From: Bactericera cockerelli
Lineage: Eukaryota; Arthropoda; Insecta; Hemiptera; Triozidae
Assembly (NCBI GenBank): GCA_024516035.1
Contig: CM044961.1
Span: 12,171,198 to 12,235,197, forward strand
Reading direction: 5' to 3'
DNA length: 64,000 nucleotides
The notes beneath the pieces were generated by a model. It worked only from the letters and a program-made list of their open reading frames with translations. It was not told the origin of the DNA and did not search any database. Every line of letters starts with the position of its first letter. Positions within the stretch are counted from its first letter, which is position 1. This document shows positions 472-36,000 of the stretch, piece by piece. The position numbers and the translations under genes are program-made.

Positions 472-3400
472 ACTGAAATCACTCTCAAAGTTATCAAAGG
501 TCTCTACCCAGGAGTCACAACTGTTCAGCTAGACAACCTGGCTGCAGAGACTGCTGCCTCAATGACCACTAAGCATCCTGACTATGCTGTTCTTGCTGCC
601 AGAATTGCTGTGTCCAATCTTCACAAGGAAACCAAGAAGACTTTTAGTGGTACGGTTCATTTCATTTTCACCAAGTTTTCATAGTCCAACAAATTACAAT
701 CTGTATTACTATTACACTCTAAAGTAATCATAATTAATAGTCACTTGCAATAATAATATGAGGGTTTTCCTTGAAGCTTTATTTATTTTGATAGCATTGA
801 ATATTATAGTAAGTATTTTTCTTCCACCCAAGTAAACCAATTTTTTATGACTCACTAATTTCAGTATTGAACTTGATTCCCAGAGGTCATCAAAGAAATC
901 TAATCAATGTTGAAAAAAACTGCTATCTTCAAGAGAAACACTATTTCCAGGGTTTTTTGAGATTTTGTTGAACTTTGTTTATTTTCATAACATTACATAA
1001 AACAAGTATTTTTCAACTTCATTTCCAGAGGTCATTGAAGAGCTCTACACAATGGTGAACAAAGCAACTGGCAAGAGGAACCCAATGATTTCAGATCAAC
1101 ATTACAAGATTATCATGGCTAATGCTGACCGACTCAACTCTGCCATAATCTATGACAGAGACTTCAACTACAACTATTTTGGATTCAAGGTAAAAATTAA
1201 ACTTAAAAATCTAAAAATGAAATTCCAATTTGATATGTACCTACTATGTGTAATAAAAGACCATAGTTCATTAAAATCATATAAAATAAGGGCCAAGTTT
1301 CTACTTAAAATCTAAAATTAGAAGTTCTGTCTACTACATTTTTTTCAGAATGAATTCACACCCTTGTGTATTCTATTATTCTTTTTTCACTTCAGACACT
1401 TGTCCATCTATATTATTAGGTATATATAATTTTTTCTCATTACATCTCCTCACACTATTCAATTTATTCTTCTTCAACTTAGTTTTTTTTTTTTTTTTTT
1501 TTTTTGTCATATCAAAAAAAATCTGGGAACCTATATTTTAAAGAAATACTCATTTAGAATAGAATAGAATAGAATATACCTTGTTTATACTGCCGAGGTA
1601 AGACTGAAAAGTCCCTTTACTTCAGCAGTCAAACAGGTCTTATATATTTTATTGGATAAATATATATTTTATAAGATAAAATATTCAGCGCCTTTTTTTA
1701 ATTTTCCCCAGACACTGGAGCGCTCCTACCTGATGAAGATCAACGGTCGGGTGGTAGAGCGTCCACAGCACATGCTCATGCGTGTATCAGTGGGTATCCA
1801 TGGGGAGGACATAGACTCTGCCATAGAGACGTACAATCTGCTGTCAGAGAAGTACTTCACACATGCCTCCCCCACGCTGTTCGGAGCTGCTACTCCTCGA
1901 CCTCAGCTGTCCAGGTTAGTATGAATTTTTCTCAGCTGTCCAGGTTAGTATGGATTTTTTCTCAGCTGTCCAGGTTAGTATGGATTTTTTCTCAGTTGTC
2001 CAGGTTAGTATGGATTTTTTCTCAGCTGTCCAGGTTAGTATGGATTTCTTCTCAGCTGTCCAGGTTAGTATGGATTTTTTCTCAGCTGTCCAGGTTAGTA
2101 TGGATTTTTTCTCAGCTGTCCAGGTTAGTATGGATTTTTTCTCAGCTGTCCAGGTTAGTATGAATTTTTTCTCAGCTGTCCAGGTTAGTATGGATTTTTT
2201 CTCAGTTGTCCAGGTTAGTATGGATTTTTTCTCAGTTGTCCAGGTTAGTATGGATTTCTTCTCAGCTGTCCAGGTTAGTATGGATTTTTTCTCAGTTGTC
2301 CAGGTTAGTATGGATTTTTTTCTCAGTTGTCCAGGTTAGTATGGATTTCTTCTCAGCTGTCCAGGTTAGTATGGATTTTTTCTCAGCTGTCCAGGTTAGT
2401 ATGGATTTTTTCTCAGCTGTCCAGGTTAGTATGGATTTTTTCTCAGTTGTCCAGGTTAGTATGGATTTTTTCTCAGTTGTCCAGGTTAGTATGGATTTCT
2501 TCTCAGCTGTCCAGGTTAGTATGGATTTTTTCTCAGTTGTCCAGGTTAGTATAGATTTTTTCTTAGTTGTCCAGGTTAGTATGGATTTTTAACTGTATTT
2601 GTGTCTAAAAGAGAATTGACTGATAATCACTAATAAAACAGACTGATTATAAGTGATGGTGACCAGCCAACTTAATAAAAAAAATTGGCTTGTTCTGAAC
2701 CACATGTCCAGGTTAGTATGAATTTTTTCTCAGCTGTCCAGGTTAGTATGGATTTTTTCTCAGTTGTCCAGGTTAGTATGGATTTTTTCTCAGTTGTCCA
2801 GGTTAGTATGGATTTTTTTCTCAGCTGTCCAGGTTAGTATGGATTTCTTCTCAGCTGTCCAGGTTAGTATGGATTTTTTCTCAGCTGTCCAGGTTAGTAT
2901 GGATTTTTTCTCAGCTGTCCAGGTTAGTATGGATTTTTTCTCAGCTGTCCAGGTTAGTATGAATTTTTTCTCAGCTGTCCAGGTTAGTATGGATTTTTTC
3001 TCAGTTGTCCAGGTTAGTATGGATTTTTTCTCAGTTGTCCAGGTTAGTATGGATTTCTTCTCAGCTGTCCAGGTTAGTATGGATTTTTTCTCAGTTGTCC
3101 AGGTTAGTATGGATTTTTTCTCAGTTGTCCAGGTTAGTATGGATTTCTTCTCAGCTGTCCAGGTTAGTATGGATTTTTTCTCAGCTGTCCAGGTTAGTAT
3201 GGATTTTTTCTCAGCTGTCCAGGTTAGTATGGATTTTTTCTCAGTTGTCCAGGTTAGTATGGATTTTTTCTCAGTTGTCCAGGTTAGTATGGGTTTCTTC
3301 TTAGCTGTCCAGGTTAGCATGGATTTTTTCTCAGTTGTCCAGGTTAGTATAGATTTTTTCTTAGTTGTCCAGGTTAGTATGGATTTTTAACTGTATTTGT

Positions 3401-5588
3401 GTCTAAAAGAGAATTGACTGATAATCACTAATAAAACAGACTGATTATAAGTGATGGTGACCAGCCAACTTAATAAGAAAAATTGGCTTGTTCTGAACCA
3501 CATAAATTACCATGTGGTTCAGAACGAAGATTTCTATATGAAGTTTTCTATTTGTAAAAACTAAATAAAGCATTTGGATTTAACCATCATGAGAACTTGG
3601 GATTTTTCTTTATAAGTCATTAAACAAACCCTTGGAAAATTGCAAGCTAGCCTGGCTTATTAGGGATGACTAGTTTGTTCTCTGTTTATAGTCCTCTAGC
3701 GAGACACTGGTCTTCTCCCTGTTTAACGTCCCCCAGCCAAACTATATCATTGCTTACATGTAGACTGTATGGATATCATTGCTTACGTATCATTCTGTTG
3801 ACAGCTGTTTCCTGCTAGCTATGAAGGACGACAGTATCGAGGGTATCCTAGCCACGTTCACGAACTGTGGTCTCATCAGCAAGTCTGCCGGAGGCATAGG
3901 GCTCAACGTGCACAATATTCGCGCCGCAGGTTAGTGTTACAAATTTTACTCTCTTTTTGAGAGGAAACATTTCAGTGCATTTTTGGGAGAAATTCCAAAA
4001 ACTGGAAGTTTCGACGAATTGTTTTATGTTTAATAAATATATTGACATTAAAATTGTAAAAAAAAACGTCCAGAAATACGAAGAAAAAAAAAAATGAAAT
4101 CGGAGCACAAAAATATTTATTTTTACAAAAACAAACATAATACTCCTGATTTCTAATATTAGAAATTTCTCGGAAGTAAAATCAGTGCATTGTTTAGTGT
4201 TTCTTTCAGATCATTTCTCCTTTCATTATTTTCATTTATTCTTCATATTTTAAAAGCTGTTATAATAATTAAGTCAAGTTAAAGTATGATTTCTTTGTGG
4301 TGAAGCACAAGGTCTCTTCATTTTTTTTGTGGGTAGTGCAGCATTACCAAGAGCCTCCTCTAATTTTCCAAATTATTTTACATTTATTTTTATTCTCTGG
4401 TAATGCTAAACTACTCATTTTTCCTCACGAGGTATGAGTAAACCCTGGACATCCAATTTCAGAGCAGAAAAATTCTACGCCGCTGGGAATCGAACCCAGG
4501 TCAGCGTGCGTGCAAGCTTAGTGCACTCGTCCACGGTGACTTTCTGTTATAATAGTTATTATTAATGTAATTATTTAATACGAATCGACCTCAGTAGCTT
4601 GATCGATAAGGCTAACAAAATATTAAAGAGTGCCGTGCGATGGATGTACGTCTATACGGCGATTAAGTATTTTTTTTTAACGGCTTTTCAAACGTGGTAT
4701 CATAAAAAAAGATAACCGACCTCAGTATCTTGATCGATAAGGCGGCGGACTTGTAACCTGGAGGTCGGTGGTTCAAGTCCCGGTTTCAGCAAAGATTTAG
4801 TAAAGCGAGTGTTAGTAGATGTGACATCGCGAAAGTGATTAACACATGTATGATAACTTTTTTTTTTACTTCTAATTATTTAAAACGTGTATAATGCTTG
4901 AATCATAGCGATGCTTGAATTATGAAAAAGTACATATACAAACAAAGGTAAGGAGGAAGTGATTTTTGGATTTGTCTAAGGTTCACTCTTTCCCGCTGTG
5001 ATTTAATTCCAGGTTCCTACATAGCGGGTACTGGAGGTCACAGCAATGGACTAGTGCCCATGCTGCGTATGTTCAATGCAGAGGCTCAGTATGTGGACCA
5101 GGGAGGAAACAAGGTGAGATATGTTTAATAATGTCAATGGAAATGCCAAAAGTCTGCCCCAACCGGGAGTCGAACTCGGGAACTCTGGACTACGGGCAGT
5201 AGTCACAACCATTACGCCACGGAGGCTGGCTAATTTAACTGTGAAACACAAACAAATGTTCGGCATAATTGTCATGCCCTGCTATTTTTTTAAATTTAGC
5301 AGTCACTCAGCTAAATTATTTGAGTAGAACTAAACACCAAATCTTCCTGTGAGTCCACTGTACTAACCACTTAGATAGACAGTTAGTTTCATTCAAATTT
5401 ACCTAGTTCGACTGAATAAGACTACAATTCAAATTATGGGATGTTAAAAAACATATACAGTTGAACCTGGATATATGAGTACTCGATGGACTTGAATTTT
5501 TTTCTTTTATATCCAGTTCTCTCTCACAAAGAGGTTATTTTCCCTTGTAGAAATGTAAATTTGAAATGTAAATCAACAACAATAACAA

Positions 5589-5620
<32 letters not shown>

Positions 5621-6798
5621 CTTAGGAATATGTAAAAAAAAAAAAAAAAAAAATAAAGTACATTAATAATTTTGTGTTCGTTTTTGTAAAAAAAAAATTT
5701 TTTTTGCTCAGATTTTTTTTTAATTACAATATTTTTGTAATCCGGGGCGAAGTTTTAATTTTTATCTATTTACCAAATATATTATGTAAAATTTAAGTAT
5801 GTATATTTTATCACAATTTTGTAGATATACCCTATCTTACACGTAAATACAATAGTATTATTATTGCGTGTATATGCATAAAAAAAGTTAATTCTCTGCC
5901 ACTTAACCCCGTTCTTAACTCTTCCTCTTCCCCACAGAGGCCGGGCGCGTTCGCCATCTACCTGGAGCCCTGGCACGGGGACATCTTCGACTTTCTGGAC
6001 CTGAAGAAGAACACCGGCAAGGAGGAGTTCCGCGCGCGCGACCTGTTCTATTATTATTATTATTATTATTATTGATGTATTTCACAGATCTAGTCTGGTT
6101 CTGAGGTATCATAATACATCCAAGGATTATCCTAATCCCTCAGGATATATTTATGTATGACTATGTTGTTCTTCGTATAATGTGGGCTGTTGCTAGGATG
6201 ACAGATTTTTGTAGGGTGTTCGTGATCATATTCTGGTTGCTGTTTCCTGGGATGTTTCTCAAATTTTCAGCAAGGTTTTTTACCAACTGTTCCAGTCGCT
6301 CCTATGATTACTGGTATTATTTGTGCTTTAACATTCCACATCTTCTGAATTTCAATCTGAAGATCCTTATATTTCAGTTTTTTTCTCCGCTTCTTTTTCT
6401 CTTATATTATTGTCATTGGGTACTGCTACGTCAATTATATAACATTGTTTGTTCTTTAGATCTTTGATTACTATGTCAGGTTTGTTTGCCATAATTGTTC
6501 GATCAGTTCGTATTTGTTGGTCCCACATTACAATGACATTTCCATCTGGACTTCTCTCCTTATTATTATTATTATCATAGTTATATATTTTATTTTGATA
6601 CATCATCATCTTCTCGTTTTTAATCCAAGTTTGGAAACCTCAGGATTATTATTATTATATTATTATTATTATTCCCCTCCTCCACAGAGGCCGGGCGCGT
6701 TCGCCATCTACCTGGAGCCCTGGCACGGGGACATCTTCGACTTCCTGGACCTGAAGAAGAACACCGGCAAGGAGGAGTTCCGCGCGCGCGACCTGTTC

Positions 6799-6833
<35 letters not shown>

Positions 6834-9800
6834 TATTCCCCTTCCCCACAGAGGCCGGGCGCGTTCGCCATCTACCTGGAGCCCTGGCACGGGGACATCT
6901 TCGACTTCCTGGACCTGAAGAAGAACACCGGCAAGGAGGAGTTCCGCGCGCGCGACCTGTTTCTACGCCCTCTGGATCCCGGACGAGTTCATGCGGCGCG
7001 TCGAAAGCGACGGCACCTGGAGTCTGATGTGCCCCAACTCCTGCCCCGGCCTGGCCGACTGCTGGGGAGACAAGTTCGATGCGCTCTATCGAGGATACGA
7101 GGCGGAAGGTGAGAGTAGAACCTCGGTCGGCAATTAGCGGACCGCGGTCCAAATCCGGACCGCGATGCCCGCGAACAAAATTCGAGGCCCGAAAAGAAAA
7201 TCTGTTTCCTCCTTACAAATTAAAAGAATTTATATTTTGCCCCTAAAACACGTGATTTTGTCATTTTCCTGGTGGGGGAGTGACTGATGGTTTTTCTTCA
7301 TCCGGACCGCGTAAATTTTTCTCATTGTAAATCTGGACCCCAACAGGATTTAACTGCCGACCCCTGAACTCTATAAATAAATATTCTTCTTAAACTGGGT
7401 TTAATGTCACTTTCAACTGTATGGTCATATCACGACGGGCGTGTTACCCTCCATTCGCAGGAAACTCACAAACCTGCTACCCACTTTAACATCACCCAGC
7501 CTGGGTTGGCCCGGAATGTCAGCATCACGTAGTCTTCATTTCGCTGAACGTTGCTTAACTTTGGTGATCCTACGCCATTGACGATGGCTAAAGTAAATAT
7601 CGAAGTTTGGTACCTGAGAACTATTGTGTACGTTGGTCTCATCTAGTATCAAAGGTCTGTATGGAGACTGATAACTAACAAGCACTAAGAAAACCTTAAT
7701 AAATAGTGAGCCAAAAAAACTAACGGTTATAACTCCCTTATAATTGAAGTATAGTATATTAATTTTACGATTCAATTATGGAATTTTTCAATTCTAAGGG
7801 ACCATATTGTAGCAGTGTCGGATCAAATCAAATAACCTATTTTTTAGTACATTTAACCCAATTTATTAATAATCAGCTATGCCTAACTGATGAGTTCAAA
7901 TAAAAACGAAACGATTGTCTCAAGCTGCTTGGGGTTGAATATCACATATATAAATTGTAGTGATGAAAATTGGGCTAAATGTACTTAAAAAAAAAAAAAA
8001 ACAATACATTTGATTTGATATTAAATTTATTATTTTACAGGCAAATTTATCCGTCAAGTGCCCGCCAGAAAGTTGTGGTTTGCCATTCTGGATTCTCAAA
8101 TAGAAACAGGAACCCCCTACATGCTCTACAAGGACTCATGTAATCGAAAGTCAAACCAGCAGAACCTTGGTAAGATCATTACCGTGCACTAGTGGTCAAG
8201 TGGTTAACGCGCTAGTCTTGGTAATCCAGGTAGCGTAGGGATCCGTTGGTTCGAATCCCACCCAGTGCATGAATTTTTCCTCATTGATTTGAGTTTGTGA
8301 CCACATAATAATAAGACTCTGAGGGTTCAGTGGTAGAAAATTCCACATGTGAACATTATTATATGTGTATCTCACCCTTAGCTAAGTTTTTTTTTTTTTT
8401 TAGAACAGTCCCTTTTAGGCCAAGATCAGTTATAAATTTGAAACAGCCTAAAAATATCATAGACAACTTAGTGTGTATCGCTAGAGATACACATTGCGCA
8501 GGTAAGACGTCATCTTGATATGTATCGCTGGAGATACACACGGTGCAGGCGGGACCAGGTAGTGTGTATCGCTAAAGATACACATGGCGGTGAGAGTGTT
8601 TTTTTTTTAAACTAAAGTCTACACTGTTACCCGATTCACACAAGATGCACAAAAGTGTCACTAAATAACAGCAATAAGTGACGTGAGAGAACAATCATTA
8701 CTGATTTGTCTTATTAAATAAGGACATGGCTTTGATGATAGGAGATTTATGCATTTATGTTTTATTAGGAATTATGAATTGCCTTGTAGCTGCAGATCTT
8801 AGTCTGGAGTCGATATATCTCTGAGTGTTAATGGATTTTCACATCCTCTGTTCAGAGTCTGTCCCGGTAGCTCAGTGGTAAAGGCGGCACTCTGTGAATC
8901 CAGAGAATCCAGAGGTCGTGGGTTCGAAACCCAGCCGGGACATGACAAGTTATCCTCCCATTTGGGATTTTTACCACATAATAATATGTCTTACTGCTGG
9001 AATAATGGGACTTTAATAGTCCTAATCGGGCAGTATAAATAAGGCGATATTATTATTATTATTATCCTCTCCTCAGGCACCATCAAGTGCAGTAACTTGT
9101 GCACGGAGATAGTAGAGTACACCTCCGCAGATGAGGTGGCGGTGTGCAATCTCGCCTCCATAGCTCTGAACATGTTCATCAACCCCGCAGACAAGAGCTA
9201 CAATTTCGCCAAACTGAAAGAGGTAAGTAAATATTTTTTTTTTATGAGTGTATAATATTTTTTATCAGTGTATTTTTATCAGTAAATAAATGTGTTTCTT
9301 TGTGTTGTTATATTAAGACGCACTAAGTGTACCGCAGAATTACAGGATTTTCCATTATCTTTAATATCTTTTTTTATCAAAATTGTACCAACTTGAAAAA
9401 TACGCGCAGAATATTTTCACCACCATGACTAGTAAGACCAATATCGCTCAGAATTATCCATTGTATAGATGCATGACATTATGCAACATAATAAATGTGT
9501 TTCTTTGTGTTATTTTATCACAATTTTAGTGGGTAGCGCAGAATCAAAGGACTTTTCCATATCTTTAATATCCCAATAACTTATTTTTGCCTATAATTCC
9601 GCCACTGGTCGCTGCTTACATTAAAGCAGCTACTCAATTTTCCTCACGAGGTATGAGTGGACCCCGAACACCCAAGTACAGAGCAGAAAAAATCCTGCTC
9701 CGCTGGGAATCGAACCCAGGTCACCGTGCGTGCAATGCCAAGCGCGCTAACTCACTCTGCCACAGTGACTACTTCTTATGCAACATCTTAGCAAATCCTC

Positions 9801-12800
9801 CCTACAGTATTAATGTTCTTCTTGAGACTCCAATTTCATCACCAAAAATCAAACTTCAGGACCTTGTTTCCATCCGCGAGACCGCACCTTTAGAATTATA
9901 AATAGTTTTTTTTTGTTGAAAAAGATAGGGTAATTGTGAAAAATGGGTAGTTCCCGTCATAAATTTAATATTAATAAATAAAAAAAAATGGTTAGCGTTA
10001 GCCCAAAACTGTTAGCGTAATAGAACATCCTGTCTCGAGCCAACAGTAAACAAAGTTCAGAAGAAGACTGAATTATAAAACAGAAACAGAATTAAATTTA
10101 AGATAATCCAGACTTTCCTTCAAGGCTATAGTGCGCTGTGATTGGTTCAAACTCTGACTTGAGGGAGGGTCTAACTTATCTTAAATTTAATCCTGTTTCA
10201 TAATTCGGACTAAATATCACCTGGCAGATAGCTAATATTTATTTATTTATTTAAATCACAAACGGGCGCACCCTGTACTAACTAAATTACAATATTTACC
10301 CTAACTAATAGGCATTAAAAAATATAATAATTAATATTACCTTAACTTAACTTACACTAACTATCAAATTGCACTAAAACTAACAAGTAAAATCTTATCT
10401 AACAAGTAAAACAAGTTATCTTCTCCTCATTTATTATTTGTTTCTAGAATAAGTAAATATTATATTATATCAAGTTAGTTTTAAGACTAGATTTAAGAAA
10501 ATTGTATACACCGTAAGGTAAACTAACAATAAAAATAAAATTAATTAACCATTACAAAATAGTGGTGATGATTTCATTTCCGGTAAAAAATTTCCTAACA
10601 ACTTCTTTTTTCTCCTCTAGGTGTCTAAAATAGTGACCAGGAATCTGAACAAGATCATTGATGTCAACTTCTACCCTGTCGTGGAGGCCAAGAACTCGAA
10701 TGAAAGAAATCGCCCCATTGGTAATTCATGTATTTGTTTACTTTGTTTTTTATTATTATTATTTTTTTAATCTGTTTTCACGCAACAATAATGCTGCAAT
10801 TACGTAAACATGTTTGAGGGACACTGCTTACAGACTAAAGACCTATATCCAGGCCCTCCCTACATCTTTGTTTAAATTGTTCCAAAGTGTGATCGAGATC
10901 CAAATTTACACTGTTACAATAAATTATTAAATATTATTAGAGAGGAGTGTAATTTACTTGTTCTGTAGTGTAATTTTCTTTCAGCCAAATACGTATTCAT
11001 CTTCGATTTATTACTATCTGACCTGGTTGCAGGGTTTTCAGTATAACCCTTACAATTTACTGAAAACCTTACTATGAGCGCACGAATAGCTCAGTGGTTA
11101 AGCGTTCGCACGCCATACGGAAGGTCCCGGGTTCGAATCCCCGCGCCGACAAAAATTTGTATTCAAAATTTGGTTACAGTTGTTTGTTAGGGATACCTTC
11201 CGGTGCGCTCGTGTTGACCCAGCACCTAATGGGAAGTATTGTGTCACTTCTTGCCCATCAGAGGGGAGGCATACTACGGGATGGGCAGGCTGCAACACAG
11301 ACCACAAGCGTCTAAAAAAGGCTGTACTTACTTTGCGTGTCCATGATGGTTGTGTCATGGTGGTGGAAGGGTTGATGGGTATTAATCCCTATGGACGCCC
11401 AGAAGCAAATTTCCGTGACCTGTGTGTGGTGTATTGTGTAGTGTTGTTTATGTATAAAAAAACGAGTAAAAATGTTTCTTAAAATTCAGAATTAGGAACT
11501 TTCAATTTTGATGTTCTCTGCTTTGGCTGTGAAACACTCATTAAAAAGAAAATTAACACTACGACCTAATTAGATCTATTGTATCCATTTTCGATATAAC
11601 TGGAATCTCAATTTCACTCATCTGTACTTCCGATCACAAACTTTGATATTTAATTCGAAAAAACCCGTGTTTCCCTCTCATAACCTTTCCGTTCCTTTTC
11701 TGTTTTTCGTTTTTATTTGTGTTTATATATTTTTATTTTTTCTTTTCTAGTTCTCAAATTATTTAAATGCTCTTTGTTCCTACCTAGTAAACCTATTTTA
11801 ATTTATAACTTAGATTTAATTTAATTTGTTAATTAGCATGTAAGTTTGTACACATACAGTATGTATCCTTTAGTACAATAAAATTTAGTGGAAGAGATTG
11901 CCATAGGCAATAACCCTTTAGTTAGGACTTATGTTTCAAATATTTTCTATTCTTCTTCATTTTTATTGTATATATTGTTTTTTTCATTTTTTCACTGTTA
12001 AAATTATTATTTATATGTACATACTGTCCTTTTGTATCTAATAAAGAATTGTATAATAATAATAATAATAAAATTGACATTGAAACCCTGATCTGATTTT
12101 CCCCAGGTATCGGTGTGCAGGGCCTGGCGGATCTGTTCATTCAGATGCGTCTCCCGTTCGACTCGAACGAGAGCCGCCTCCTCAACAAGCAGATCTTCGA
12201 GACCATCTACTACGGCGCCCTGGAGGCTAGCTGCGAACTTGCGGCGCGGGACGGGGTGTACAAAACCTACGAGGGGAGCCCGGTCAGCAAAGGTATGTTG
12301 TTGCTACCTTTTTGCGGGAAGCAAAGACATTGGGCCCGGTCAGCAAAGGTATGTTGTTGCTATCTTTTTAGTCGAGGGAGAGACATTGGGCCCGGTCAGC
12401 AAAGGTATGTTGTTGCTATCTTTTTAGTCGAGGGAGAGACATTGGGCCCGGTCAGCAAAGGTATGTTGTTGCTATCTTTTTGCGGGAAGCAAAGACATTG
12501 GGCCCGGTCAGCAAAGGTATGTTGTTGCCATCTTTTTGCGGGAAGCAAAGACATTGGGCCCGGTCAGCAAAGGTATGTTGTTGCCATCTTTTTTCGGGAA
12601 GCAAAGACATTGGGCCCGGTCAGCAAAGGTATGTTGTTGCTATCTTTTTAGTCGAGGGAGAGACATTGGGCCCGGTCAGCAAAGGTATGTTGTTGCTATC
12701 TTTTTAGTCAAGGGGAGACATTGGGCCCGGTCAGCAAAGGTATGTTGTTGCTATCTTTTTGCGGGAAGCAAAGACATTGGGCCCGGTCAGCAAAGGTATG

Positions 12801-15800
12801 TTGTTGCTACCTTTTTAGTCGAGGGAGAGACATTGGTTTTTCTATGGTTAAATGTATGTACAAAATGTCTATATAAATTTGAAAATAAACAAGAGACCTT
12901 GTTTAGAGTGCTGGAATAAAGGGACTTTTCAGTCTCACCTCGGCATTATAAACAAAGTAATTTCTATTCTATGGTTATATTATTTTGTTTATTGACCCTT
13001 TTTTAATAATCCAGCTACAGACTAATAATAATAATAATATGTGGTAAAATTCCCAAATGGGAGGATAAATTGTCATGTCCCGGCTGGGTTTCGAACCTGC
13101 GACCTCTGGAATATCTGGATCCACAGAGTGCCGTGATATCACATTTACTCAAGCTCGCTTTACTAAATTTTTGGTTAACTTGGGACTTGAACCATCGACC
13201 TCCAGATTACAAGTCCGCCGGCTGGCTATTCGATCATGCTACTGAGGTCGGTACACAATAGACAAAATATTCATACAAAATAACTGATCTACCTATCCCC
13301 CCATTGCCATAGACAATAACCCCGCCCTTTAGTTAGGACATATGTTTTTATATATTTTCTATTCTTTTTCATTTTTATGGTATATTTTTATAATTACATA
13401 TTTGTATGTACATAATGTCCATTTATATCTAATAAAGCGTTGTATAATAATAATAATAGTAATAAGTAGTCACTGTGGCAGAGCGAGTTAGCGCGCTAGG
13501 CATTGCACACATAGTGACCTGGGTTCGATTCCCAGTGGGGGAGGATTTTTTCTGCTCTGTACTTGGATGTTCGCGGTCCACTCATACCTCGTGAGGAAAA
13601 ATGAGTAGTTACTTGTATGAGTAACGACCATTGGCGGCATTACCAGAGTACAAAGAAATTAATGTAATAGAATAATTCGAAATGTAAAGGAGGCTCTTAG
13701 TAATGCTGCGCTACCCACAAAAATTGTGAAGAGGCCTTGTGCTTCACCACAAAAAAAATCATACATACATACATAGTAATAATAATAATATCCCCCACCA
13801 GGCATCCTCCAGTATGACATGTGGGGTGTGACGCCCACAGACTTGTGGGACTGGGCCGCCCTCAAGGAGAAGATAGCCGCCCATGGGGTGCGTAACTCCC
13901 TGCTCCTGGCGCCCATGCCCACCGCCTCCACCGCCCAAATTCTGGGCAACAATGAATCCTTCGAGCCCTACACCAGCAACATCTACTCTCGACGGGTGCT
14001 CAGCGGAGAGTTCCAGGTACGTGTGTCCCGATTACCTGACGGCAATCCAGAGGTCCAAGGGTGTTGGGTGGAAGAGATTGCCAAAGGCAATAACCCTTTA
14101 GTTAGGACATATAATATGTATATATTTTTTTTTTCTTTTTTTTTTCTTCTTTTTTTTTCTTCTATTGTATTTTAATTTGTAATTATTTGTATTGTATATA
14201 ATATGTCCTATTAATAAAGTGTAAATAAATAAATTAAAATAAATGAATAAATGTCGCGGGTTCGAAACCCAGCCGGAACCTGACAAGTTATCCTCCCATT
14301 TGGGTTTTTGACCTCATATTAGAATAGAATATGTAAAAAATTGGTATTTTATCAATAATGATTTTACAATGGTTGACAAGTTTACACAAAAAATTACTTA
14401 TACACTAAAATAAAACATAATTCATACTGATTTCATTGAACTGAAAGCTCTCATTTTTTAGTAAAATTGCAGGATTAATAAATCTTATGGTGTGTACCCA
14501 TTTATATCTACTGGTACCTAAGTAAGTAAACAAGCAATAAAAAGATAAGTTTAGCCTGTAGAGCACATATTCTTTGGCTTACTGCTGGAATAATGTTATT
14601 CGTTCGTCCTAATCTAGTAGAATAAATAAGGCGACATTATTACTATACCTGCATTTTTGGCCAAACCCAAGCTATGTGTCGGACCTAGGTGCCGTAATGT
14701 GACTTCTAGACCCGAATAATAAATAGGATGAGAGTTAAGATAAGTGTTCACTAGGGCTATAGTGCGTCGTGATTGGTTGAAACTCCGACTTGAGGGCGTT
14801 CCCTGGCTTAGCTTAACTTAGCCTGGCTTAGCTTAATTTCTTCCACTCAGAGGGTTGGGTGGAAGAGATTGCCACAGGCAATAACCCCGCCCTTTAGGTA
14901 GGACATTACCTTCATTCTCTTTTTTGTTCTTGTATCTTTGCTCAATCTTTTTGTTTTTTCTTTATAATTTCGTTGTATTTTACTGTATATACATATTTTT
15001 GTTCTACCTAATGAAGCTTACTATCCTCATCATAGGGTGGCGTCATCGTGAACGATAGTAGCCAGACAGTAGAGGAATGACTCAGCACTTCTACCACTGT
15101 CTTTACAAGGAGGCTAATAATTGACAAGGGCCCCCAGAACCAAGCCAATGCTGGTCTACTCCCTATTTATAGTCCCCCAGCTTACTATAATAATAATAAT
15201 AACTTTGATCCTGTTTCATAATGTGGCCCCTAATACCAATAAACCCTGTTTCCTCTCCATTGCGCAGGTGGTGAACCATCACCTCCTCAGAGATCTGGTG
15301 GAGCTTGGACTCTGGGACGACAACATGAAGGATCAGCTCATTGTGAACAATGGCTCTGTGCAGGACATTGAAGGTAGGACCATGAAGAATCTATTACAGT
15401 CGAACCTGGATTCTTATATCTGCAACTAAATATAAGAAAAACCTGGATTAAAAAAAAAAAAATTGGTCAAATTTACTTCTCTTTAAAGGAAAATAACCTC
15501 TTCACAAAAGAAACCTGGATATAAGGGAACAATTTCCAGGTCTAGTTCACCTTTCTATAAGAGAAACCTTGATATACCTTAGAGAGAGAAAAAAACAGAA
15601 GGTGTTGGCGCACTGCCGTGCGCTGAGATGTGGTTCAGGACGGACCAACTTTTGATTTAAGTTGGCTGGAGACCATCACTTTCCCCAGCTGTAGCCCAGC
15701 TGGTTACAACAACAACAACAACACTTAAGGACCTATTATTCTGTTTATTCCTCCCAGGCATCCCGCAGCAACTCAAGGACCTATTTTTTTTTTTTTTTTT

Positions 15801-17074
15801 TTTTACTTTTGAAAGATTTTTTTTTATTAAACAAATACTTTTCATCTCGTATATCTAAAGAAATAACTTTAATCAACTAAAAATTAAAATATGGCATGTT
15901 TAAGTGACCCATTATGCAAAGCATGTGTTGGGCCACTTTTTTTTATTATTCTGTTTATTCTCCCCAGGCATCCCGCAGCAACTCAAGGACCTGTACAAGA
16001 CGGTGTGGGAGATCCCCCAGAAGACTGTCCTGGACATGGCAGCGGACCGGGGCGCCTTCATAGACCAGAGCCAGAGCCTCAACATCTACATGGCCGAGAT
16101 CAACTACGCCAAGATGAGCTCCATGCACTTCCACGGGTGGAAGCTGGGTCTCAAGACAGGTGAGTTGGGTGGAAGAGAATTCCTAGGACATTATTGAATC
16201 TATTTTTTCAATATTCATCTTTTTACTCTGTCTTATCCCGCTTGAGCAGGTTCGACGTTGTTTACATCTCATGGTTGAGGTTGGTTGATTTTGGCACACT
16301 ATAAAATATTCATCAATAAAAACATACTGTGGAATACAAGTCAAAAATTAAAAAAAAAAACATGAAACACAAAATCAGTAGAATAAAGAGGAGATAACAT
16401 ACTTAATTATAAGGAGAAGTCACCGTGGCCGAGTGAGTTAGCGCACTAGGCATTGCACGCACGGTGACCTGGGTTCGATCCCCGGCGGGGTAGGATTTTT
16501 TCTGCTCTCTACATGGTTGTTCGGGGTCCACTAATACCTCGTGAGGAAAAATGAGTAGCTGCTTTAATGTGAGTAGCGACCAGTGGTGCAATTATAGGCA
16601 AAAATAACATATTAGGATAATAAAGATAAGGAAAAGTCTTATACTTCTGGGCTACAAACTAAAATTGTGACATAATAACACAAAGAAACACATTTTTAAC
16701 TTAATGTGTAAGGTAGGGAAAACCGACGCTTAGCAATGACGGAAAACCGACGCTTAGCAATGACTTAAGTTAAAGAATTTGTCTTTTAATGTCGCCCTAA
16801 ATCTAATCCTGTTTTATGATTCGGCACTAAAGGGTCTATAATAATTATCATATCCTTCTGTTTACCATCTCCAGGCATGTACTATCTGCGCACCAAACCC
16901 GCCGCCAACGCTATCCAGTTCACGATTGATAAATCCAAGATGGCCGCTGTGTCCGCCAGTAAGGCCGTCAGTGAGCGCAGTGCCGAAGAAATCAAGGCGG
17001 AACAGGAGCAGGCAATGGCGGCCATGATTTGTAGGCGCGACAATAAGGACGATTGTATGATGTGCGGCGCCTAG
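472..17074 (+). CDS. RRM1: Ribonucleoside-diphosphate reductase large subunit (5'-partial, 14 exons visible)
   Basis: Catalytic alpha subunit of class I ribonucleotide reductase, which reduces NDPs to dNDPs in the cytosol with the small subunit RRM2. Visible exons (E1-E14): 472-649, 1029-1189, 1712-1914, 3805-3929, 5013-5113, 6852-7108, 8041-8169, 9077-9222, 10621-10720, 12107-12292, 13802-14016, 15268-15373, 15968-16159, 16875-17074 (TAG). All junctions are GT-AG and phases agree, except that E6 is one base too long. The exons encode about 765 residues; human RRM1 has 792, so about 38 N-terminal residues, including part of the ATP cone, lie upstream of base 472. Key residues are present: the first redox Cys (QLS|SCF across E3/E4), thiyl Cys and Glu in NLCTEI and the second redox Cys in AVCNLAS (both E8), radical-path tyrosines in GMYYLR (E14), and the C-terminal shuttle pair CMMC. 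Odd points: duplicated exon edges at E2, E3, E6, E10 and E13, and the E6 frameshift. Family identity is certain; intactness is not. Confidence 0.96.
884..953 (+). pseudogene. Decayed duplicate of RRM1 exon E2
   Basis: A 3' splice-site-like AG at 882-883 is followed by sequence that aligns with the start of the true exon at 1029 for about 70 bases, through its ATTTCAG segment. The upstream intron stretches (about 765-883 and 965-1028) are also similar, so exon start and flanking intron were duplicated in tandem about 145 bp apart. In the exon phase the copy reads EVIKEI then TAA, so it cannot be used. It is an old duplication with many substitutions. Confidence 0.7.
1901..2590 (+). repeat. 30-bp minisatellite built from the RRM1 E3 exon end plus splice donor, array 1
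   Basis: The array starts in the last coding bases of E3 (CAGCTGTCCAG) and continues into the intron. Each 30-bp unit holds that exon end, the donor GTTAGTAT, a T-run and CTCAG. I count 23 donor-bearing units including the real one at 1914/1915. Variants differ mainly at C/T in CAGYTGTCC and in the T-run. The first unit is 29 bp and places TGA at 1922-1924 in the exon frame, so use of a later donor would truncate the protein. The open frames that run through the array are a by-product of the 30-bp period. Confidence 0.95.
2591..2706 (+). repeat. Tail of the 798-bp second-order repeat, copy 1
   Basis: A non-minisatellite stretch starting AACTGTATTTGTGTC and ending GAACCACAT. It is repeated almost unchanged at 3389-3503. 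The end of it resembles sequence near 15630-15680 and 62650-62730 (TTGGCT...GAACCACAT), so it may be an older dispersed repeat captured in the duplication. Confidence 0.8.
2707..3388 (+). repeat. 30-bp splice-donor minisatellite, array 2
   Basis: Second array of the same unit, again with 23 donor-bearing copies, one of which is changed to GTTAGC. It is separated from array 1 by a unique tail at 2591-2706. A nearly identical tail follows it at 3389-3503. Array plus tail therefore form a second-order tandem duplication with a period of 798 bp, measured between the two tail starts (2591 and 3389). Confidence 0.93.
4289..4541 (-). repeat. tRNA-derived SINE, family A
   Basis: Reverse-strand copy of a roughly 290-bp element with a tRNA-like head (box-B-like GGTTCGATTCC) and a body containing CCTCGTGAGG. 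The best complete copy is on the plus strand at 13469-13762. It lies in RRM1 intron E4/E5. Confidence 0.75.
4701..4870 (+). repeat. tRNA-derived SINE, family E
   Basis: tRNA-like head starting CGACCTCAGTATCTTGATCG, with a TGT anticodon-like loop and GGTTCAAGTCC, followed by a body ending in AACACATGTATGATAAC and a T-run. A shortened copy is just upstream (about 4583-4680). Other copies: 13128-13253 (-) and 44318-44465 (-). Confidence 0.7.
5153..5232 (-). repeat. tRNA-like sequence, SINE head or tRNA pseudogene
   Basis: The reverse strand reads as a tRNA-like fold with a box-B-like GAGTTCGACTCC and acceptor-like ends. It lies 40 bp after RRM1 E5. It has no clear partner in the window, so it could be a lone SINE head or a tRNA pseudogene. 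Confidence 0.4.
5455..5535 (+). repeat. DNA-transposon-like fragment with CAGTTGAACCTGGATAT end
   Basis: Shares the motif CAGTYGAACCTGGAT and the phrase TATAAG/TATATG plus CCAGTTCTC with 15400-15580. Ends of this form occur in pogo/Tigger-type MITEs. The assignment is tentative. Confidence 0.4.
5938..6050 (+). pseudogene. Truncated 5' copy 1 of RRM1 exon E6
   Basis: A full 3' splice site (CCCCACAG at 5930-5937) and the first 113 bases of the exon ([20 protein letters not shown]... in phase) are followed directly by a TTA run instead of the rest of the exon. There is no donor. It differs from copies 2 and 3 at one codon (TTT for TTC). I interpret it as the upstream arm of a long target-site duplication around the retroelement fragment at about 6064-6655. 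Confidence 0.9.
6064..6655 (-). mobile_element. LINE 3' fragment, R4/Dong-like restriction-type endonuclease region, degenerate
   Basis: Read on the minus strand from about 6609, the sequence encodes a typical C-terminal block of restriction-like-endonuclease LINEs: [20 protein letters not shown], then [11 protein letters not shown], then [16 protein letters not shown] and TAHIIRR near the end. Two frame changes separate the blocks, so it is a relic. It is flanked by TTA/TAA runs, and the (TAA)n tail adjoins exon copy 1, as expected for a minus-strand insertion. It lies between copies 1 and 2 of RRM1 E6. Confidence 0.8.
6688..6800 (+). pseudogene. Truncated 5' copy 2 of RRM1 exon E6
   Basis: Again a 3' splice site (TCCACAG) and the same first 113 exon bases, cut at the same base (CTGTTCTA) and continued by a TTA run. 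The real exon (copy 3) starts only 164 bp downstream at 6852. It probably arose by a second insertion, now only a TTA tail, at the same target. Confidence 0.9.
7428..7570 (-). repeat. 5S-rRNA-derived SINE (decayed)
   Basis: On the minus strand the head contains the 5S internal-promoter-like phrase GATCACCAAAGTTAAGCAACG, followed by a body with CCCAACCCAGGCTGGGTGA and GGTTTGTGAGTTTCCTGCGA. Related copies: 30172-30350 (+), 49005-49190 (-), 56226-56380 (+), and a head fragment at 55990-56025. Confidence 0.65.
8184..8345 (+). repeat. tRNA-derived SINE, family C
   Basis: Head TGCACTAGTGGTCAAGTGG with box-B-like GGTTCGAATCCC and closing CCAGTGCA, followed by a body with CCACATAATAATAAGACTCT. It sits in RRM1 intron E7/E8. 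Other copies: 21365-21575 (+), 31400-31618 (-), 37198-37720 (+, interrupted), 43965-44225 (-, interrupted), 56766-56982 (-), about 28436-28660 (-, decayed), and a 3' part at 20877-20965. Confidence 0.75.
8472..8584 (+). repeat. Three tandem short hairpins in RRM1 intron E7/E8
   Basis: TGTGTATC-GCTAGA-GATACACA (8472-8493), a second at 8521-8540 and a third at 8563-8584 share a 6-8 bp stem and a six-base loop beginning GCT. Spacing is 42-49 bp and the intervening sequence is only weakly conserved. Confidence 0.8.
8861..9064 (+). repeat. tRNA-derived SINE, family B (full copy)
   Basis: Head GTCCCGGTAGCTCAGTGG with box-B-like GGTTCGAAACCC closing on CCGGGAC, then a body (ACAAGTTATCCTCCCATTTG, TTACTGCTGGAATAATGGG, GGGCAGTATAAATAAGGCG) and a (TTA)n tail. 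The tail ends 12 bp before the first base of RRM1 E8, so the SINE tail directly adjoins the 3' splice site. Confidence 0.85.
9575..9772 (-). repeat. tRNA-derived SINE, family A
   Basis: Minus-strand copy with CCTCACGAGG on the plus strand and the tRNA-like head at the high-coordinate end (AGTCACTGTGGCAGAGTGAG when reversed). Confidence 0.75.
10066..10209. repeat. Short inverted-repeat element (MITE-1)
   Basis: Ends are inverted copies of each other (AATTAAATTTAAGATAA left, TTATCTTAAATTTAAT right). The centre GCGCTGTGATTGGTT recurs at 14690-14830 and 27985-28120, where the arms are more diverged. No coding capacity. Confidence 0.65.
11079..11318 (+). repeat. tRNA-derived SINE, family D
   Basis: Head GCGCACGAATAGCTCAGTGG with GGTCCCGGGTTCGAATCC, then body AAAATTTGTATTCAAAATTT, ATACCTTCCGGTGCGCTCGT, GACCACAAGCGTCT. 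Other copies: 19128-19350 (+), 26215-26470 (+), 30400-30650 (-), 52800-53065 (+), and a fragment near 46095-46205. Confidence 0.8.
11690..11885 (+). repeat. Dispersed repeat shared with 41219-41410, probable LINE 3' end
   Basis: Shares CAAATTATTTAAATGCTCTT, TTTGTTAATTAGCATGTAAG and TATGTATCCTTTAGTA with the reverse strand at 41219-41410, and ends in an AATAAA-like stretch. It is directly followed by the GAGATTGCC repeat. Confidence 0.6.
11888..12070 (+). repeat. GAGATTGCC...GGCAATAACCC repeat (LINE/SINE 3' module)
   Basis: GGAAGAGATTGCCATAGGC, then AATAACCC and GTTAGGAC, a T-rich stretch and a (TAA)n tail. Further copies: 13303-13462, 14066-14232 and 14862-15032 (all +), and 41340-41420 (-). 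Four copies fall in RRM1 introns E10-E12. The hairpin GATTGCC-N-GGCAATA may be the retroposition signal of a partner LINE; that is inference. Confidence 0.6.
12277..12837 (+). repeat. About 56-bp minisatellite built from the RRM1 E10 exon end plus splice donor
   Basis: Begins in the last codons of E10 (CCCGGTCAGCAAAG, PVSK) and repeats that exon end with donor GTATGTTG ten times, counting the true junction at 12292/12293. Two internal variants alternate: one with GCGGGAAGCAAAGACATTGG and one with AGTCGAGGGAGAGACATTGG. The period is not a multiple of three. The exon frame stays open through several units, to about 12651. Confidence 0.94.
13024..13253 (-). repeat. Adjoining minus-strand SINE pieces, families B then E
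   Basis: 13024-13134 is the head part of family B in reverse. 13128-13253 is family E in reverse, with ACCGACCTCAGTAGCATGAT as its start when reversed. Junctions are abrupt, suggesting one inserted into the other. Confidence 0.6.
13469..13762 (+). repeat. tRNA-derived SINE, family A (most complete copy)
   Basis: Head AGTCACTGTGGCAGAGCGAG with box-B-like GGTTCGATTCCC, body with CATACCTCGTGAGGAAAAAT, and 3' region with ATTGTGAAGAGGCCTTGTGC. A second plus copy is at 16418-16690. Confidence 0.8.
15034..15142 (+). repeat. Well-conserved dispersed repeat of about 110 bp
   Basis: Starts CATCATAGGGTGGCGTCATC and ends TTGACAAGGGCCCCCAGA. A reverse copy with only a few differences is at 26843-26957. 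It lies in RRM1 intron E11/E12. No ORF or RNA family recognised. Confidence 0.75.
15730..15783 (+). pseudogene. Truncated 5' copy of RRM1 exon E13
   Basis: A short stretch of intron, a 3' splice site (CCTCCCAG) and the first 26-27 bases of E13 (GCATCCCGCAGCAACTCAAG...) end in a long T-run. The real exon with the same 5' flank starts at 15968. The pair brackets about 150 bp that begins with poly(T), as for a minus-strand retroposon with poly(A). I read it as a target-site duplication of about 50 bp. Confidence 0.85.
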
Positions 17075-17084
17075 ATGTGGAATA

Positions 17085-17905
17085 AGGGCCCAAGTGTGGA
17101 ATATGAACCCAATGGAACCAGGGCCCAAGTGTGGAATATAAACCCAATGGAACAAGGGCCCAAGTGTGGAATATGAACCTAATGGAATAAGGGCAATAGT
17201 GTGGAATATGAACCCAATGGAACCAGGGCCCAAGTATGAAATATGAACCCAATGGAACAAGGGCCCAAGTGTGGAATATGAACCTAATGAAACCAGGGCC
17301 CAAGTGTGGAATATGAACTCAATGGAACAAGGGCCCAAGTGTGGAATATGAACCTAATGGAACCAGGGCCCAAGTGTGGAATATGAACCCAATGGAACCA
17401 GGGCCCAAGTGTGGAATATAAACCCAATGGAACAAGGGCCCAAGTGTGGAATATGAACCTAATGGAATAAGGGCAATAGTGTGGAATATGAACCCAATGG
17501 AACCAGGGCCCAAGTATGAAATATGAACCCAATGGAACAAGGGCCCAAGTGTGGAATATGAACCTAATGAAACCAGGGCCCAAGTGTGGAATATGAACTC
17601 AATGGAACAAGGGCCCAAGTGTGGAATATGAACCTAATGGAACCAGGGCCCAAGTGTGGAATATGAACCCAATGGAACCAGGGCCCAAGTGTGGAATATG
17701 AACCTAATGAAACAAAGGCCCAATTGTGAAATATGAACCTATTGGAACAAGGGCTCAAGTGTGGAATATGAAGCTAATGGAACAAGGGCCCAAGTGTGGG
17801 ATATGGACCCGATGGAACAAGGGCCCAAGTGTGGGATATGAACCTAATAGAACAAGGGCCCAAGTGTGGGATATGAACCCAATGGAACAAGGGCCCAAGT
17901 GGCTT
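17085..17905 (+). repeat. 35-bp minisatellite directly after the RRM1 stop codon
   Basis: About 23 units of AAGTGTGGAATATGAACC-type sequence begin about 12 bp after the TAG and presumably lie in the 3' UTR. A higher-order period of 280 bp (8 units) is visible: the rare variant GGAATAAGGGCAATAG occurs at 17179-17194 and again 280 bp later. ORFs on either strand within it are periodic artefacts. Confidence 0.93.
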
Positions 17906-33074: not shown

Positions 33075-36000
33075 TTTTTTTTTTTTTTCAACAAAATACT
33101 CTTTATTTATTTTAATTTTACATTATATACATTACATGTTGTGAGTTTATGAGGTACTATTACCCTATTTGTTATGGGTTGTGTTGTACCTCATTTATAA
33201 ATACAATAGAAATTTAAGAGTTAAAAAAATATATATATACATTTTTACTTGAACTACACAAGCTCCATTCTCAGTATTTTGTCACAGAAATAAATTGTAA
33301 AATTATCTACATATTATGTATAATATTTATATTTATACATAGGTATTTGTAACTAAAATGATAAAAATAATACATTAATTTTATGAATTTATATTTACAT
33401 AGGTAATACTAAATTTTATGATGAAGACAATGTATATTATTCCTGTTTTTTTATTTTAAATATGTATTTATAAACAATTTTATGCTACTCTCTTTAAATT
33501 CTTTAATCCACTTTTTTATTAGATTTTTCTTTCTAATATTGTTTTCTTCGTTTTTTATTTCTTCTGGTAAAATGTTGTACAGTTTCTTACCAATAAAAGT
33601 AAAGTGTCTCTTGTATAGAGACTTGCAAACTTTCTCGGTTTTAATATGTCCTGTCTGTCGAGTTATTGTTAGTGTTCTTGTCCAGTTAGGTGCTTGTTTA
33701 TTTGCGTGTATTGCTGTATTGTATAAGTATATGTCTATTGTATTAGGTACGTTAAATATGTCGTAAAGATCTATAGTGTGAAAAAGTCTCGGTTTGTTAA
33801 GTATTATTCTTAGTAAAATATTTTGAGTTCGTCTTAGTTTTTCTATAGTGTTTTGGTAAGCACCACCCCAAGATGTGATACAATACTGAAGAAGAGAGTG
33901 TGCTAACGCAAAATAAATGACTCTGAGAAGGGGTCTGCTACAAACTCCTCTTAGTTGATTGAATACATACATGAGGTGGCGTAGTTTATAGTTTAGGGAG
34001 TCAATATGTTCAGTCCATTTCAGATGTTGGTCAATCAGTATACCTAAATATTTAATTGTTGTTGTTTTTGTTAATTCTGTAGCGTCTTGTTCTGTGTTAT
34101 GTATGTTTAGTCTCGATAGTCTTGGTTGTCCGGCTTGTGTGATTGAAAATGTTATGTAGTTGGATTTCGTTAAATTTAATTTCATAGACATGGAAGAGTA
34201 CCAACACATAACATTTTTCAAATCGTCAGTCGCGAGGTCGTGAGTTTTAGTCCAGTCTTCAGTGGCGTAACATATAGCAGCATCATCAGCATACATGAAC
34301 ACTTTTCCTCTGCTAATTATAGGTAAATTATTTATATATATATTGAATAAATCACAGCTTAAAAGTGTTCCTGTTACAAGAGAATAACTGCTACATGTTA
34401 CTAAAGTTGAGAGTTGTCCGTTAAGTCGTAATTGTTGAGTTCTTTCGCTGAGATATGATTTGAACCAATCTAATGTTATATTTTTTAAACCGATATTTTC
34501 AAGTTGTTGTATTAAAATATTATGTTTTACTGATTCATACGCTTTGGTTATATCTAAAAACACTGTTAGTACTTTTTTATTCGCATTCATGTTTTCTTGA
34601 ATATACGAAGTCAAGTCTAAGGTCGCATCTTCAGTACTTTTTTTCTTTCTAAACCCATATTGGTGACTTGATAATATATTATTTGTTTCCAAATAATTAT
34701 TAATTCTTATCTTCACTGCACTTTCAATGATTTTACTAAAAGTTGTAAGGAGTGAAATAGGTCTATAATTATTCATGTTTTTCTTATCTCCTTTCTTAAA
34801 AATTGGGACTATTACAGCTTTTTTACATATATTTGGAAAAATACCATTTTTTAAACTTAAATTAATTATGTGTAGTAAAGGTGAAATGATGTGTCCAGCA
34901 ATTTGTTTTATTGTTTTAGCCTGAATACTATCATAACCAGGTGAAGTATTTTTTAGTTTAGAAATAATTTTGTGCAGTTCACCAATTTGAACAGGTGTAA
35001 ATGTACTTAGAGTGTTATGTGTTTGTATATTTTGTAATAATTGTAATTGTTGAGTTTGTATTTCTGTAAGTGTAGGTATTGATGTAGCTATTTTACTGCC
35101 TGTTTCACTAAAGAAAGTATTAAAAGTATTTCCAGCTCTATATTTATCTTTTAAACAATCAATTTTTTCATTATCTGTTGTTATTATCTTTATTTCGTTT
35201 TTTGTTTTTGATTTTCTTCCAATAAATTCATTTATTGCCTCCCATTTCTTTTTTGGAGTATTACAAGAATAAATTTCATTTTTTTTGTAAGTTTCTTTTG
35301 CTCTACGCACAGCTTTTGAAACTTTTTTCCTAACATTTTTATAATATGTTGAAAGATGTATATTTTCAGGATTTTTTTTTGATTGAGTAGCTAATTTATC
35401 TCTATTACGAATATATAATACCAATTCAGGAGTAATCCATGGTTTAATATTTTTTATATTATTTGATACTTTTTTTAGTTTTTTACATATATTAATATAT
35501 GATTGCAATTTTTCAATAAATAATGGGCATATAACGTCGATATTATTGTTGTTAATTATTTCAGTCCAACTTTCATTTTTTAATATTTCATCTAATTTGT
35601 TATAGTCAGTATAAATTATTGTTTCACCTTTTTTTCTTTTTTCATTATTAATATTTGAATTCAATATAATTTTGGAGACTATAGAGTAGTGATCAGAAAT
35701 ATTTGTGTTAAAAATAGCAGTGTCTATATTAGATAGATTTTGATCTTTGAATATAACATGATCTATACAGGACTTTGATCCTAGTGTTACACGTGTTGGT
35801 TTGTTTATGCACTGAACAAAACCTAATTCAGATATCATGTTTAAATAATCTTCCTTGGCAGAACTTGTACTTTGGGGTAATATATCAATGTTTATATCTC
35901 CCATTATTAAAGTTTTAGGCGGCAAATTTTGTAAATTTAATAGTTCGTGTAATTCATCTATAAAAATATTAATATTAGATTTAGGAGATCTATATATTCC

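Follow-up and report, generated by a model that had tools for sequence, protein, structure and literature searches.

Donor-site minisatellites at exon ends of Bactericera cockerelli: a probable genome-wide class, with 46 copies at one exon of RRM1

RRM1 and the two copies of its locus

The window, the whole stretch of 64,000 nucleotides that was analysed (C7:12171198-12235197), carries the RRM1 gene, of which 14 exons are visible in our gene model, spanning 472 to 17074; further 5' coding parts were found in a second copy of the locus. The visible exons, translated across a 1-nt frameshift in E6, gave a query of 765 aa that was 100% identical over its whole length to the protein P0003, 93% identical to the RRM1 of Cacopsylla melanoneura and 92% to those of Cyamophila willieti and Diaphorina citri. 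P0003 has 811 aa and stems from a contig of 2573 nt, which for 811 codons leaves no room for introns; its source tag, 'lgn', presumably stands for assembled sequence-archive reads. It reads ...RPQLSSCFLL..., with LSSC lying across E3/E4, which corresponds to donor 1914 joined to acceptor 3805. P0003 also agrees with splicing from the first of the E10 donors and, at E2, E6 and E13, into the acceptor copy that adjoins the exon. Intron 3 is 1890 bp long and ends at 3804. A Ser codon is split between E3 and E4 (AG/C, the slash marking the splice site here and below) and is followed directly, in E4, by a Cys codon aligned with residue 218 of human RRM1, which we take to be the redox cysteine of the enzyme. 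The preliminary description of this DNA had placed the donor two codons before this cysteine; it is indeed close, but at one split codon.

Table 1. Features of RRM1 and its repeats in the window
Feature	Position	Strand	Remark
Decayed copy of E2 acceptor and exon start	867..944	+	72% over 78 columns; E2 = 1029-1189
Exon E3	1712..1914	+	Gene model; spliced protein = P0003, 100% over 765 aa
Donor minisatellite, block 1	1902..2590	+	23 units, 29-31 bp
True E3 5' splice site	after 1914	+	CTGTCCAG/GTTAGT
In-frame TGA reached with any later E3 donor	1922-1924	+	Read-through frame
Single-copy tail of block 1	2591..2703	+	Duplicated along with the block
Donor minisatellite, block 2	2704..3388	+	23 units, offset from block 1 by 797-799 bp, depending on the unit
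Exon E4	3805..3929	+	Gene model; finishes the split Ser codon, Cys codon next
Partial copies of the E6 5' part with acceptor	5938..6051 and 6688-6801	+	Real E6 = 6852-7108
Second donor minisatellite, E10 end	12278..12816	+	Donor after 12292; 56-bp unit, ~9.6 copies
Local copy of E13 acceptor and 25 exon bases	15734..15782	+	E13 = 15968-16159
35-bp minisatellite	17078..17901	+	23.5 copies; begins 4 nt past the RRM1 stop codon

This second locus copy, at C7:11812030, has 46 E3 units as well, with a few base differences from those of the window. The pair (C7:11810129-11890104 and 12171198-12260208) is 361 kb apart on one scaffold and is collinear, apart from large indels, over ~89 kb counted from window base 1 (window and flank), with a patchy identity of 86-99.7% in the pieces listed. 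The second-copy contig ends at a gap of 100 N, and 8160 N lie directly upstream of window base 1. As two contig ends overlap in this way, the simplest reading is that of two haplotypes of one locus, and judging from the sequence the second copy is most likely the other, unpurged haplotype, a true 361-kb duplication being a less likely origin. An LTR retroelement of ~2 kb, with an identical 5-base sequence on either side, is found between units 45 and 46 of the second copy (L009/L010, C7:11813486-11815465). The copy number of minisatellites is expected to vary between alleles; for the E3 array it is 46 in the one locus copy and 46 in the other.

One extra T at 6954-6969, in the third copy of E6, breaks the RRM1 frame in the window. 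Neither P0003 nor the second locus copy has this T, and we therefore rejected the possibility of an RRM1 pseudogene. The second copy has a 1-nt frameshift of its own, in E12, and both shifts are probably consensus errors.

The E3 donor array and other repeats of RRM1

It was found that the end of E3 is repeated 46 times together with its donor, as the preliminary description had reported: 46 copies of CCAGGTTAG[T/C]AT lie within 1911-3380, and the units follow each other at 30 nt, except for one spacing of 29 and two of 31. The 18-mer CTGTCCAGGTTAGTATGG gave 46 matches at up to 3 mismatches, compared to 0.03 expected (100 shuffles), and TRF described the region 1902-3388 as an array with period 30 and 49.0 copies, spacer included. 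Each unit consists, as had also been described, of an exon end and a donor, with 13 nt of exon and ~16 nt of intron that include the 5' splice site. Of the 46 units, 45 share the donor 11-mer CAGGTTAGTAT without change and all contain CCAG/GTTAG. Every unit also holds a 22-nt GT...AG stretch with a T-run and CTCAG (CTTAG in a few). This stretch had been regarded as an intron-like module, but 22 nt is far below a usable intron length. Unit columns 6-17 (of 30 nt) are invariant in the 46 units of the window and one of them varies in the second copy; the independent changes are too few, and we draw no conclusion on constraint from them. On the plus strand of the window, 45 of the 48 [AC]AGGT[AGT]AGT sites fall inside the two E3 blocks.

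Positions 1889-2705 and 2688-3503 are 98% identical over 819 columns and the order of the unit variants is nearly equal in the two blocks, and block 2 is therefore a duplicate of block 1 together with its tail. Both arrays of 23 units described earlier are thus present, but they are not independent. From this comparison, a single array arose first, by tandem duplication of a 29-30 bp segment (the end of E3 and the first ~16 nt of the intron) to 23 units, and this block was then copied once, as a piece of ~797 bp, to give 46.

Read-through from E3 gives AGG TTA GTA TGA, and this stop precedes all 45 later donors, so the earlier statement that later donors would add an early TGA holds. A search of a clustered collection for the truncated product gave 4641 hits; none of the 120 that were listed was nearly identical, the top hit having 81% identity and the highest identity among those listed being 83%. 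For the E3 array only the product of the first donor was seen, in one spliced-contig protein (P0003). This indicates indirectly that the first E3 donor is the one used, and we infer that the same choice is made in nascent RNA. Exons E4 and E11 begin at ordinary acceptors, 417 and 986 bp past the E3 and E10 arrays.

Additionally, we identified repeats at other edges of the gene; the preliminary description contains neither the E10 donor array, nor the incomplete copies on the acceptor side of E2, E6 and E13, nor the genome-wide class. The E10 array has 9.6 copies in the window versus 11.7 in the second locus copy. Its read-through is open to 12649, and donors at +168 and +336 could insert 56 or 112 aa in frame; no such insertion is present in P0003. 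The start of E6 is found in three copies in the window and in two in the second locus copy, only one of which keeps the exact acceptor string, and the array in the 3'UTR has 23.5 copies in the window versus 50.2 in the second copy. At the edges of RRM1 acceptors thus occur in 2-3 copies (E2, E6, E13) and donors in 46 and ~10. Five of the 8 local duplications in RRM1 touch an exon edge (P 6.6e-5, post hoc), a count in which 4 of 10 BLAST pairs, by eye copies of dispersed repeats, were dropped and two TRF arrays were added. With the four pairs restored P was 0.0035, and with the 10 BLAST events alone it was 0.0024; this post hoc enrichment of duplications at exon edges inside RRM1 is suggestive. 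Elsewhere in the window, 33100-36400 resembles by eye a non-LTR retrotransposon and 41800-42000 holds, also by eye, a transposase-like stretch.

Donor arrays elsewhere in the genome

We searched the whole assembly (565 Mb, 1032 contigs) for CAGGTNAGT occurring three times with gaps of 12-42 nt. This donor triple gave 1802 + 1679 = 3481 matches, versus 45 + 117 = 162 for the same pattern reversed, 39 + 63 = 102 for the donor with its bases scrambled (CAGTGNAGT) and 191 + 383 = 574 for the reverse of the latter, all counts being lower bounds in which matches overlap within arrays and large arrays weigh heavily. The 100 donor-triple matches listed all come from the first 15.7 Mb of C1, where they form 6 loci; two of these, 160 kb apart, resemble one locus in two copies. 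For the scrambled donor, the 100 matches listed of 102 fall into 31 loci across the genome, 11 of them members of one dispersed family. If the start of C1 is typical, this extrapolates to ~200 donor-array loci versus 31 for the scrambled pattern, and the number might be far higher if other types of donor and other lengths of unit were counted. Minisatellites are dense here, with 31 non-redundant arrays in 296 kb (period 15-150, at least 4 copies, both locus copies counted), and chance overlap with donors is therefore a part of the donor-triple count. A strict donor scan of the array units in these 296 kb gave only RRM1 E3 and E10 (5 rows, both locus copies), while the reversed donor gave 0 and the scrambled donor 1.

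Two further arrays in this region were recognised by eye and not by the strict scan. L020 has a 54-bp unit in 18 copies and follows an exon end PPWG/GTGAGT, and L022 has a 115-bp unit in 7.3 copies at the end of an exon with a PHD finger (1.5e-8). The stretch L020:1826-2799 is mostly an open frame of 18-aa repeats, and later donors could add in-frame repeats there. We also examined the flanks of all 6 C1 loci. The arrays of L034, L035, L036 and L037 (the same as L038) each begin at an open frame's 3' end, and an acceptor lies ahead of that frame; for the remaining locus, L039, the fetched stretch did not include the array start. The evidence for an exon end is weakest in L035, where it consists of a 25-aa frame and an acceptor. 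The unit of L036 is composite and joins two exon pieces, and in L037/L038 the main array is separated from the first one or two donors by about 100 nt of non-repeat sequence. We also took four of the loci matched by the scrambled control (L040-L043), chosen for GTRAG-like letters in their units; all of them begin at coding exon ends, and about 4 more loci in the same list look similar. At these four, coding support was found for POLE2 (4.7e-10) and beta-galactosidase (1.7e-9 to 6.4e-9) and, below the Pfam cut-off, for a GHMP kinase (8e-4) and WDR54 (2e-4). The PDB search gave no significant match for L034, L036 and L037. No Pfam family was assigned to L034, L037 and L020, and the matches of L036, all to coiled coils, stayed below the threshold.

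All 12 independent donor arrays with a visible start (RRM1 E3 and E10, L020, L022, L034, L035, L036, L037 = L038 and L040-L043) lie at an exon 3' end and run downstream, half of these starts (L020, L022, L040-L043) having been picked by hand. The first donor is AG/GT in 8 of the 12 and differs in 4. As a control, six arrays without an obvious donor were inspected, one of which (L051) begins where a coding region, with its stop codon, probably ends; no coding edge was seen at the other five, one array end being unreached in at least two.

Some arrays near other splice signals were also observed. A pyrimidine-rich 32-bp minisatellite with CATTAAC, in 25 copies (L027:1188-1985), ends 7 nt before a probable exon start, and may multiply the branch point and the pyrimidine tract, leaving out the AG. 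A 30-bp C/T-rich minisatellite lies a few bases past a possible donor AAG/GTA in both locus copies (L018:7944-8582 and L027:6363-7009).

Explanations and meaning of the arrays

We consider it probable that the RRM1 repeat is a donor minisatellite at the end of E3, of which the first donor is used and the copies are silent, and that it is one of a genome-wide class. The spliceosome would take the first, exon-attached donor and the other 45 would leave with intron 3. Copies 3' of the working donor would be silent and equal to ordinary intron, use of any of them adding a stop, and the array would persist because these downstream copies are silent. In the psyllid genome the class would comprise minisatellites that have their anchor at the 3' end of a coding exon and extend into the downstream intron. 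The presumed rule is that RNA processing is directional, so that the first donor and the first stop codon win; arrays would therefore be tolerated 3' of coding exons and rarely 5' of them. An acceptor copied upstream of an exon would be met first, which reverses the logic on the 5' side, and copies to the right of a stop codon would be tolerated in the same way as copies to the right of a donor. Among the options of the preliminary description, that of a tolerated oddity fits best. The further proposal, that exon 3' ends are a nucleation or refuge site for such arrays across the genome, at ~200 loci and perhaps more, and that their polarity is a fossil of directional RNA processing, has in our view about an even chance.

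A possible but rather unlikely explanation is that exon 3' ends or 5' splice sites are mutational hot spots which seed tandem duplications, for example by transcription-linked breaks or template switching, so that the class would reflect a rate of birth and not only tolerance. The donor triples exceed the three composition-matched patterns 6- to 34-fold, and at least 4 of the 31 scrambled-control loci are exon-donor arrays although that pattern asks for no donor, a share that we judged to be above the genome share of exon-donor junctions. However, these four loci were hand-picked, exons here are, by impression, probably richer in GC than introns, arrays 3' of a stop codon (the RRM1 3'UTR, probably also L051) need no splice site, and tolerance in combination with dense minisatellites predicts the same direction. 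It is unlikely that the array is a regulatory donor cluster, in which 45 decoys would either delay splicing by binding U1 snRNP or give some leakage into poison isoforms and so adjust the level of RRM1 mRNA. The E3 donor matches 10 of the 11 U1-complementary bases, the best of the 13 visible donors by count and joint third by duplex energy, and all later donors yield the same early TGA. Against this stand the similar arrays in unrelated genes and, weakly, the search for a truncated RRM1 given above. Similarly, we see no evidence in RRM1 for the selection for donor clusters that had been suggested earlier, since arrays of the same kind are present at unrelated exon ends.

The remaining explanations concern the unit itself and the assembly. 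That the AG/GT of each unit serves as donor and acceptor, with multiples of the unit being spliced out as in human UBC, is very unlikely: such dual-specific sites are described for tandem repeats in the available part of PMC10809524 and would suit the 8 first donors with AG/GT, but not the other 4, and the introns end outside the repeats, at the E4 and E11 acceptors. As intron 3 ends beyond the array, its two ends do not both lie in the repeat. The recursive (ratchet) splice site proposed in the preliminary description has a T-run and AG/GT in each unit in its favour, but TTTTTTCTCAGCTGTCCAG/GTTAGT has a further AG (CTCAG) 8 nt upstream of the abutting AG/GT, and intron 3 is only 1.9 kb long, while ratchet points occur mostly in long introns according to the accessible text of PMC8605326; we regard it as extremely unlikely. 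An assembly artefact is just as improbable. The frameshift in the third E6 copy and the run of N up to window base 1 would agree with it, but the 46 units in both locus copies, with their separate base differences, and the LTR insertion in only one of them argue against it.

Related systems are known, and of these the IFI6 minisatellite and the repeats at human exon-intron boundaries belong to the same kind as the psyllid arrays. In human IFI6 a minisatellite lies at an exon end and its units serve as splice donors (available text of PMC4526556), similar to the E3 units, which each carry a donor and start at the real exon end. IFI6 concerns one gene and protein isoforms, whereas the psyllid array has 46 copies in a housekeeping gene, use of its later donors poisons the frame, and arrays of this class occur again in the genome. 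Human segmental-duplication genes contain internal tandem repeats, some at exon-intron boundaries, with units of ~30 bp, ~4 copies on average and 27 intron modifications (PMC2812944, as excerpted); these involve recent paralogs and novel introns, in contrast to the tens of copies at pre-existing introns of conserved genes in the psyllid. In the potato RdRp gene an intron was gained by tandem duplication across an intron-exon boundary, which likewise copied splice signals, but there, in the accessible part of PMC4974935, a single duplication gave a new intron, whereas the psyllid has many copies and no new intron was seen. UBC shares with the E3 units a tandem array of AG/GT, dual-specific splice sites in its case; these bound coding monomers, whereas the psyllid copies sit in an intron (PMC10809524, same part). 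Drosophila ratchet points are tandem acceptor-donor pairs with T-run, AG and GT in the same order as in the psyllid unit (PMC8605326, same text), the latter differing by its further AG 8 nt upstream and an intron of 1890 bp.

Among the top literature matches on splice-site minisatellites, a body of text mostly outside subscription papers, we found no report of a genome-wide class of donor arrays. Single cases are known, such as human IFI6; the genome-wide recurrence is the new aspect and deserves a proper census.

The choice among equal donors is usually studied with few engineered copies. At RRM1 E3 an essential gene naturally carries 46 nearly equal donors in a row, with similar arrays elsewhere in the genome, and if this reading is true each array is a natural competition experiment among many near-identical donors. 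Ordinary RNA-seq would suffice to measure the rule that the first donor wins, as well as exon definition and the leakage into poison isoforms. If arrays are attracted or sheltered by exon 3' ends, this would be a new rule for the birth or survival of minisatellites, from which new introns, isoforms and annotation errors would also arise.
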